Source of the DNA: Prochlorococcus sp. AG-363-C02
GTDB taxonomy: Bacteria; Cyanobacteriota; Cyanobacteriia; PCC-6307; Cyanobiaceae
Assembly: GCA_003278345.1 (NCBI GenBank)
Contig: QCFH01000002.1
Coordinates: forward strand, 1-64,000
Reading direction: 5' to 3'
DNA: 64,000 nt
Part shown: piece by piece, positions 20,593 through 23,136 of the stretch
Layout: the number at the start of each line of letters is the position of its first letter
How positions within the stretch are numbered: the first letter of the stretch is position 1
Notes under the pieces: generated by a model
Told to the model about the DNA's origin: nothing
The model's database searches: none
Seen by the model: the letters and a program-made list of their open reading frames with translations, nothing else
Translations under genes and position numbers: made by a program

Positions 20593-21531
20593 TCAGTTCC
20601 AAGCATCTCTCAACCACTCCATCTGCTTTAGTGATTCATCAATTGATGGCATTTTCTGCATATTAGGATTATTGTGATTAACAATAATATCCTCACATAA
20701 CTCTAGAATTCCATATTTTTGAAGGGCGAATTTCATACTTGGTGCTTTCATCTCTTCTCCAATAGGTATATATTGCCGAATGTGCTTATTCTCACTAGGT
20801 TCAATAACACTAAAGGCATTTAGTATTTTTGCAAACTCAATTGGCTTAACCTTGATAATATTACCAGAATCAAGATAAAAAGTTATTGAAAAGTTTTCAT
20901 AGGCTCCATAATTCATATTTATTATAATCTCTGAGACATCTTTGCTATTTGTAATTATTGTCATAGATCTTTCTTGTTTTTTTCTATAAAGAGGCATTGC
21001 TAATTCTCCACAAATATAAAATAATAAATCAATTACATGTATCGAATTAACAGGGATAGCAATAGGCATATTATTCCATTTCTTATTTGAATTCTTCTCA
21101 GGTAGATTAACAACAACTTTATCTATTTTTTTATTTCTCGAAGTTTGCCTAATATCCTCAACCCAGTAATAGTATCTTCTATTCATTAACAACCTAAGAT
21201 CTCTTCGCTTGAAAGTTTTGATTTCATCTATATCTAAAGATACGGGCTTTTCCGTATAAATCTGGGATTTTCTTTCAGAATATTTTGATAATACTTGAAG
21301 ATGAGAATTCTCATCCGTACATACAAGAACAATGTCGCTATTGTAATTCAATTCTTCTTTTTCGGAAATCAAAGCATTTAATCCAATTTGCTCCACAGCA
21401 CAAGATGTGTTTTTAGAATATAGGTTTCTGTAGAGTAGTTTTGATTCAACTCCTAAGTAATTAAAATGTTTATAATATAATCTTGCCATATATCCAGTAC
21501 CTATAATTAATATTTTCATTTTAGATACCAC
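20593..21531 (-). CDS. Gfo/Idh/MocA-like NAD(P)-binding oxidoreductase
   Basis: 'MKILIIGTGYMARLYYKHF', 'DIVLVCTDENSHLQVLSKY', 'IYTEKPVSLD'. Confidence 0.65.
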   Translation of the reverse strand: MVSKMKILIIGTGYMARLYYKHFNYLGVESKLLYRNLYSKNTSCAVEQIGLNALISEKEELNYNSDIVLVCTDENSHLQVLSKYSERKSQIYTEKPVSLDIDEIKTFKRRDLRLLMNRRYYYWVEDIRQTSRNKKIDKVVVNLPEKNSNKKWNNMPIAIPVNSIHVIDLLFYICGELAMPLYRKKQERSMTIITNSKDVSEIIINMNYGAYENFSITFYLDSGNIIKVKPIEFAKILNAFSVIEPSENKHIRQYIPIGEEMKAPSMKFALQKYGILELCEDIIVNHNNPNMQKMPSIDESLKQMEWLRDAWN

Positions 21532-21619: not shown

Positions 21620-21931
21620 TTAAGAAATAAAGTATACTTTCCTAAGTCCAGAAGGGTAAAAGTATCTTCACTTAAACCCCGCAACAATTAACAAACACCT
21701 AAAAAGATTGGGTTGGGAGAAGAGACTTACTGCAATGGTTGGAGAAATGTTCTTGTCACCTCAGGACAGAGCAGGTGAGTTTCAAAAGGGGATTATCTTT
21801 CGACAAATCGAACACACTGAACACAAACAGGGAACCGAGGTGCATATGACAACACTCAGTTTTTAGAGAAAAGAAGAGAGCTGATGAATTGGTGGACTAA
21901 GGAATTATTCACTCAAGGGATGGAGATATAA
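21620..21931 (+). pseudogene. degraded tyrosine recombinase (phage/island integrase), C-terminal catalytic part with several frameshifts
   Basis: Joining frames gives ...VYFPKSRRVKVSSLKP/ATINKHLKRLGWEKRLTA/HGWRNVLVTSGQ/AGEFQKGIIFRQIEHTEHKQGT/RGAYDNTQFLEKRRELMNWWTKELFTQGMEI*, with the HxxR box, RQIxH box and AYD...LEKRRxLMxWW tail of P4-type integrases; lies 47 bp from tRNA-Ser. Confidence 0.75.
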
Positions 21932-21978
21932 AAAATATTTTCAGGAATTCTTATTGTTGGGTATATCTGAAGTCGGAA

Positions 21979-22063
21979 CGGAGAGGGTGGGATTCGAACC
22001 CACGGATAGTTTCCTATCAAACGATTTCGAATCGTTCGCTTTCAGCCACTCAGCCACCTCTCC
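21979..22063 (-). tRNA. tRNA-Ser (anticodon CGA)
   Basis: GGAGAGGTGGCTGAGTGGCTGAAAG...AACGATTCGAAATCGTT...GGGTTCGAATCCCACCCTCTCCG; long variable arm; acceptor pairs 7/7. Confidence 0.95.
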
Positions 22064-22113: not shown

Positions 22114-23136
22114 CTATTCCCAACCTGCTTTAGTCATAAGGTTAATAGCTTTTGCATTATATTTTCCCAATTGATATATAGATACTGTATCAGGAGTAAA
22201 TCCACCAAAACGCTTAACTTCAGGGCTCTGATTGAATCCTTTTAAAGGATGCTCGTAGGTAGGTCCCGCAAGTCCTGTACTTCCTTCAGGAGAAGCTAGA
22301 AACTCCAAAAGCTCTATTGCTTCTTTTTTATTTGTTGCATATCTAGCTAGCCCACCTGCACTAACATTTACATGTGCAGGATTAGGAGTTATTACTTCAA
22401 CCCTTTGGGCTAATTTTTTATCTTTAGTTCCATTTACGCCAGCCAACATTCGAGCAACATAGTAATGGTTAACTATACCGACCCCACATTTTCCTTGTGC
22501 TACCGCCCTAGTTATACCAATATCTCCAGGAAAATATGGCTCAGAAACATTTGAAATCATTTTATTTAACCAAGTCTTAGTTTCTTTCTCTCCCCTTAGG
22601 ACAAATTGATTTGCAACTAAAGATTGGTTATAAGGACTATTTCGTTTTCTCAAGCAAACTAAGCCTTTCAAAGATGGGTCAGCTAAATCTGAATAGCTAT
22701 TGATTTTATTGATGTCTACAATCTTTGGATTTGCAACCATAACTCTTACTCTTCTTGTAAGTGCATACCATCTTCCCTGTGAATCTTTATACTCCTTTGA
22801 AACATTAACCTCTAATTTATTAGATCTATAAGGCTGTAATAGTCCGAGTTTCGCTGCATTACTAATTCGAGCTGCATCAACTAGCAAGATTACATCTGCT
22901 TTTGATTTTTTACCCTCTCTTTTCAATCTTTCAATCAAAGAAATACCAGTTGCTTCTATGAGCCTTACTCTTATTCCAGTTTCATCTGCAAACTTCTTAA
23001 AAACTTGTCTATCAGTATTGTAATGTCGGCCCGAATAAACTCGTACTTCCCTTGTATTTGCTCTCAACGAACTTACAGAATTGAATAATAAAGTAGCAAA
23101 TGCTAGTGAGGAAATAAAACCAGCTATCCTTTTCAT
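22114..23136 (-). CDS. futA: iron(III) ABC transporter substrate-binding protein (FutA/IdiA family)
   Basis: Signal peptide; 'EVRVYSGRHYNTDRQVFKKFADETGIRVRLIEATG', 'NHYYVARML'. Confidence 0.85.
   Translation of the reverse strand: MKRIAGFISSLAFATLLFNSVSSLRANTREVRVYSGRHYNTDRQVFKKFADETGIRVRLIEATGISLIERLKREGKKSKADVILLVDAARISNAAKLGLLQPYRSNKLEVNVSKEYKDSQGRWYALTRRVRVMVANPKIVDINKINSYSDLADPSLKGLVCLRKRNSPYNQSLVANQFVLRGEKETKTWLNKMISNVSEPYFPGDIGITRAVAQGKCGVGIVNHYYVARMLAGVNGTKDKKLAQRVEVITPNPAHVNVSAGGLARYATNKKEAIELLEFLASPEGSTGLAGPTYEHPLKGFNQSPEVKRFGGFTPDTVSIYQLGKYNAKAINLMTKAGWE

Follow-up and report, generated by a model that had tools for sequence, protein, structure and literature searches.

Tycheposons of Prochlorococcus were reportedly treated by Hackl et al. 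in Cell in 2023. PMC10872708 describes them as cargo-carrying elements of 4–200 kb associated with seven tRNA genes in Prochlorococcus, and PMC10872708, PMC10187409, and PMC11389934 give a tRNA boundary, a tyrosine recombinase, and variable cargo as their features. The locus analyzed here has a tRNA gene, tRNA-Ser(CGA), at one boundary, while the repeat of the tRNA 3′ end that marks the far boundary in its relatives was not found in the window. Since the recombinase is represented by a fragment in place of a functional protein, the feature would be classed as a tycheposon remnant rather than a member. We consider it very probable that this is a dead, tycheposon-like integrative element, once located at the 3′ end of tRNA-Ser(CGA), which is a hotspot across picocyanobacteria.

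The window, meaning the whole 64,000-nt stretch that was analyzed, corresponds to bases 1–64000 of contig C2 in a 1.42-Mb genome (42 contigs, 77% complete) and exhibits a G+C content of 32%. The closest named relatives of its integrase are Prochlorococcus records. The features around the remnant are as follows:

1–20577, no strand assigned: remaining part of the glycan island, running off the contig start (NeuB, PIG-L, cytidylyltransferases, DegT, Polysacc_synt_2, formyltransferases, and class-III aminotransferases)
20593–21531, minus strand: Gfo/Idh/MocA oxidoreductase, the final gene of the glycan island, with its start toward the integrase remnant
21630–21931, plus strand: integrase pseudogene with its TAA (21929–21931), identified by frameshift-aware alignment, shuffle significance, and tree
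21932–21978, no strand assigned: 47-bp spacer between the integrase stop and the tRNA, the last 14 bp being a possible surviving element end
21979–22063, minus strand: intact tRNA-Ser(CGA), whose 3′-terminal 11 nt are the att core repeated in the elements of relatives
22114–23136, minus strand: extracellular solute-binding protein gene, the conserved right-hand neighbor of the tRNA in most relatives compared

Between the Gfo/Idh gene and tRNA-Ser(CGA), the largest open reading frame does not exceed 52 aa, and no terminator-like site was found around the tRNA/integrase junction.

By frameshift-aware alignment, positions 21630–21928 were matched to residues 337–437 of P0001, an intact 437-aa tyrosine recombinase that is the product of a gene in G027 (AG-363-O06). 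This alignment scored 333, while the same scoring gave a mean of 28 and a maximum of 44 for 200 dinucleotide shuffles, and at most 40 for 291 other stretches of the window. The G027 gene was also recovered by a DNA search of 100 relatives, being 73% identical to the remnant, and P0001 itself scores above the Pfam cut-off for Phage_integrase, with a match to the phrog_1 integrase at 6.6e-32. A peptide stitched across frames in the preliminary description matched the NCBIfam integrase model NF007246 (E 1.5e-10), although its 40 bits fall well under the curated cut-off, which is set for whole proteins, and phrog_24775 was matched at E 1.7e-12. The same peptide found no match in Pfam, which is the one result that would suit a non-integrase origin, in which the likeness arises by chance or from conserved noncoding DNA. 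This origin has practically no probability, as the 73% DNA identity, the frameshift-aware alignment, and the shuffle test refute it; Pfam does match the intact relative, and the remnant sequence is not conserved in relatives that lack the integrase. The homology to the catalytic domain of P4/CP4-57-like tyrosine integrases is real and beyond chance, and the remnant is the broken last quarter of such a protein, lying 47 bp from tRNA-Ser(CGA) at the 3′ end of the tRNA. The preliminary description had called it a decayed C-terminal tyrosine integrase on the plus strand that ends 47 bp short of the 3′ end of tRNA-Ser(CGA), and this is confirmed: the TAA is complete at 21931, and the tRNA has its 3′ end at 21979. 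The start had to be moved from 21620 to 21630, where the homology begins. Viral contigs, scanned for the intact integrase family, yielded no relative, phage records held only distant integrases (<30% identity among the matches listed), and a profile of four integrase sequences had no match among solved structures.

The alignment also corrected the reading frame. The true first stretch, KYTFLSPEG*KYLHLNP, runs continuously with ATINKHLKRLGW, and the VYFPKSRRVKVSSLKP given for it earlier was read in the wrong frame; the frameshift placed at CCCC/GCA is an artifact of that misreading. Instead, an in-frame TAA at 21657–21659 terminates the frame prematurely, and frameshifts are located near 21735, 21773, and 21837. 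Of the at least four single-base disruptions that had been proposed, the first is thus a misread frame. The RQIEH box, with Gly changed to Glu, and the tyrosine of AYD are readable as the preliminary description stated. The HxxR box, listed there as retained, has its His codon broken at 21735–21736. Arg I and everything else upstream of integrase residue 337 are absent from the remnant, and the first 336 codons were found nowhere in the whole assembly, so that the complete catalytic set R...HxxR...H...Y does not occur in an open frame. The gene is dead and the remnant is a pseudogene, because Arg I is absent, the HxxR His codon is broken, and a stop stands at 21657. Identical residues are encoded at 66 of the 98 codons comparable with the G027 integrase, with a dN/dS of about 0.2–0.3, which indicates that most of the divergence arose under constraint and that the death of the gene came later. 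A gene that is unbroken in the cell itself, with frame breaks introduced by the sequencing or assembly of a single-cell genome, is very unlikely. The fragmented, 77% complete assembly is consistent with a single-cell origin like that of the named relatives, but such errors would have to place one stop and three frame breaks within 300 bp while neighboring genes stay open over hundreds of codons, and they would explain neither the loss of the 336 N-terminal codons from the whole assembly nor that of the tRNA-facing cargo.

A 33-row tree grouped the remnant with five intact integrases at a support of 99/98, namely those of G027, G058 (AG-363-N20), G016, G003 (AG-412-P08), and G415. These intact relatives come from other Prochlorococcus single-cell genomes, and the loci of the clade are mostly at tRNA-Ser(CGA). 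The integrase and this tRNA share one contig in G003, G016, and G027; they lie on separate small contigs in G058, where the link is inferred from an att copy, and the G415 copy adjoins tRNA-Ser(TGA). In the three genomes with a continuous contig, the integrase points toward the tRNA across 4–10 kb of cargo, which includes a C5 methylase with its neighbor in G027, a serine recombinase and other genes in G003, and TPR genes in G016. A small AlpA-like gene lies upstream of the integrase in the intact relatives, giving the plan [11-bp copy of tRNA 3′ end]-alpA-int-cargo-[tRNA], and a similar arrangement of integrase and tRNA-end repeat was found for wider-family elements at tRNA-Asn, tRNA-Thr, and tRNA-Ser(GCT). 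A 63-aa open reading frame of the same sequence occurs near tRNA-Ser in G027, G016, and G058 (L033:1412–1603, L035:14697–14888, and L037:4109–4300), for which Pfam returned no match.

The att core consists of the 11 nt CGGAGAGGGTG (plus strand, 21979–21989), which form the 3′ terminus of tRNA-Ser(CGA). Direct copies of 11–16 bp are located about 250–300 bp before alpA in G027, G003, and G058, and the nearest copies found in G016 are about 6.5 kb away; the chance expectation for this 11-mer is about 0.001 per locus. Both the assignment to P4-type, tRNA-targeting integrases and an earlier insertion event at the 3′ end of tRNA-Ser, as put forward in the preliminary description, are supported by these relatives. 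Within the window, the tRNA 3′ end is not repeated. When the longer tRNA arm was sought in the rest of the assembly, the only near-matches belonged to two other tRNA-Ser genes. On the tRNA side, positions 21965–21978 agree at 11–12 of 14 positions with DNA beside the att/tRNA cores of other genomes, a level reached by 13 of 3000 random AA-ending stretches, and this is suggestive only of an element end still present there. Several att copies, among those of L033, L034, L036, L044, L045, L057, and L093, have in common a post-core DNA pattern (TCC..., TTCAG.ATGA, AGTCCTGAAC), which possibly corresponds to arm-type integrase binding sites. In G005, the DNA beside the tRNA holds four direct repeats of the tRNA-Ser 3′ end (L045:3628, 7782, 9624, and 10797), which suggests stacked elements without this integrase type.

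Compared with the intact plan, the locus in the window lacks alpA, the far repeat, the N-terminal three quarters of the integrase, and the 4–10 kb of cargo. An element with a P4/CP4-57-type integrase would have integrated at the 3′ end of tRNA-Ser(CGA), after which one or more deletions presumably removed these parts, so that the element collapsed to about 350 bp and lost the capacity for self-excision. Decay by point changes after this collapse would be the simplest history. The genus-wide search returned no genome with the same remnant and no close sister with a fuller version, so that the deletion steps are deduced from the architecture of the relatives rather than observed. The join between the remnant and the glycan genes could be an assembly chimera, in line with a fragmented and 77% complete assembly, but a chimera leaves four inactivating changes in 300 bp unexplained. 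Excision of an inner element, with the remnant belonging to an outer one, was also considered; this too needs a deletion of the cargo, and it would look the same at this locus. A second decayed copy of the same integrase type was found in G123, which is likewise C-terminal-only, frame-broken, and near tRNA-end repeats. There is an outside chance that the joint loss of alpA, the far repeat, and the 5′ part of the integrase, with only its C-terminus kept, is a recurrent way of locking an element in, seen also in G123, which here left a stable junction between the tRNA and the glycan island. Next to the G123 remnant (L097:9658–10009) is a type I restriction-modification-like pair, and the tRNA-Ser 3′ end recurs at 522 and 2160. 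In the remnant's own genome, a further integrase fragment, split over two short overlapping frames (G000:C19:7648–7818; L002, 1220–1707), adjoins tRNA-Tyr and tRNA-Thr(GGT) and is possibly another dead insertion scar.

The preliminary description went further and took the pseudogene as the scar of the event that delivered the glycan island, the surface-sugar genes of 0–21.5 kb (NeuB, PIG-L, cytidylyltransferases, DegT, and Polysacc_synt_2). According to this proposal, the integrase brought in the whole island at once and the pseudogene marks its right-hand end, which agrees with its position exactly between island and tRNA and with the adjacency of cargo and integrase in intact elements. The loci of the relatives lend it no support, and we regard it as improbable. 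In the clade, the cargo is located between the integrase and the tRNA and not behind the integrase N-terminus, but the glycan genes lie on the other side. Relatives of the glycan genes are also present at the locus where genomes lack this integrase there: the region flanking the tRNA contains relatives of NeuB (75%), PIG-L (70%), the formyltransferase (70%), and a 141-aa gene (64%) in G051, and a DegT relative (60%) in G004, and no integrase homologue was found at the tRNA-Ser locus of either genome. Moreover, the intact G003 element, bounded by att copies, separates the tRNA from the glycan genes. A second att copy is absent within the 21.9 kb of the window left of the tRNA, and elsewhere in the assembly only tRNA genes were matched. 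On the island side of tRNA-Ser, each relative compared carries a different gene set, so that this side is hypervariable in all of them, whereas the solute-binding gene opposite is constant in nearly all. Where the contig reaches the far flank (G004, G028, G029, and G045), this is a core block of psbD/psbC, maf, and cobQ, names that were given by eye from the proteins. A search of the remnant's own genome for cobQ, as a marker of the left core flank of the island and run without a positive control, gave nothing, and this flank is probably missing from the assembly. Delivery by the integrase of the remnant is hence unsupported rather than excluded, because the far end of the island is unassembled. 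It is possible that some earlier element delivered the island. Returning to the collapsed element, the glycan island would most likely be a separate occupant of the same hotspot, either older or independently exchanged.

The remnant is an ordinary, already known kind of genomic scar, and taken alone it amounts to routine annotation. It adds a further genome to the record of a tRNA-Ser hotspot at which Prochlorococcus carries mobile elements next to surface-glycan genes, and it gives the caution that an integrase scar need not be the vehicle of the island beside it. Among known systems, it matches the model of the P4/CP4-57-type integrases that occur with AlpA (NF007246 / PRK09692), and an AlpA-like gene adjoins the integrase in its intact relatives; it differs in that the sequences are distant (<30% among the phage-collection matches listed), AlpA is lost, and the integrase is broken. 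A second clade of tRNA-Ser(CGA) integrases, found in larger picocyanobacterial genomes (e.g., G022, G042, and G309), has the same tRNA target and a related integrase. It nevertheless forms a separate clade, and its integrase, adjacent to the tRNA, is directed away from that gene, opposite to the orientation in the clade of the remnant. As for tycheposons, the window keeps only the integrase fragment and the tRNA, without cargo, second boundary, or mobility, whereas the intact relatives match them in tRNA boundary, tyrosine recombinase, and variable cargo.
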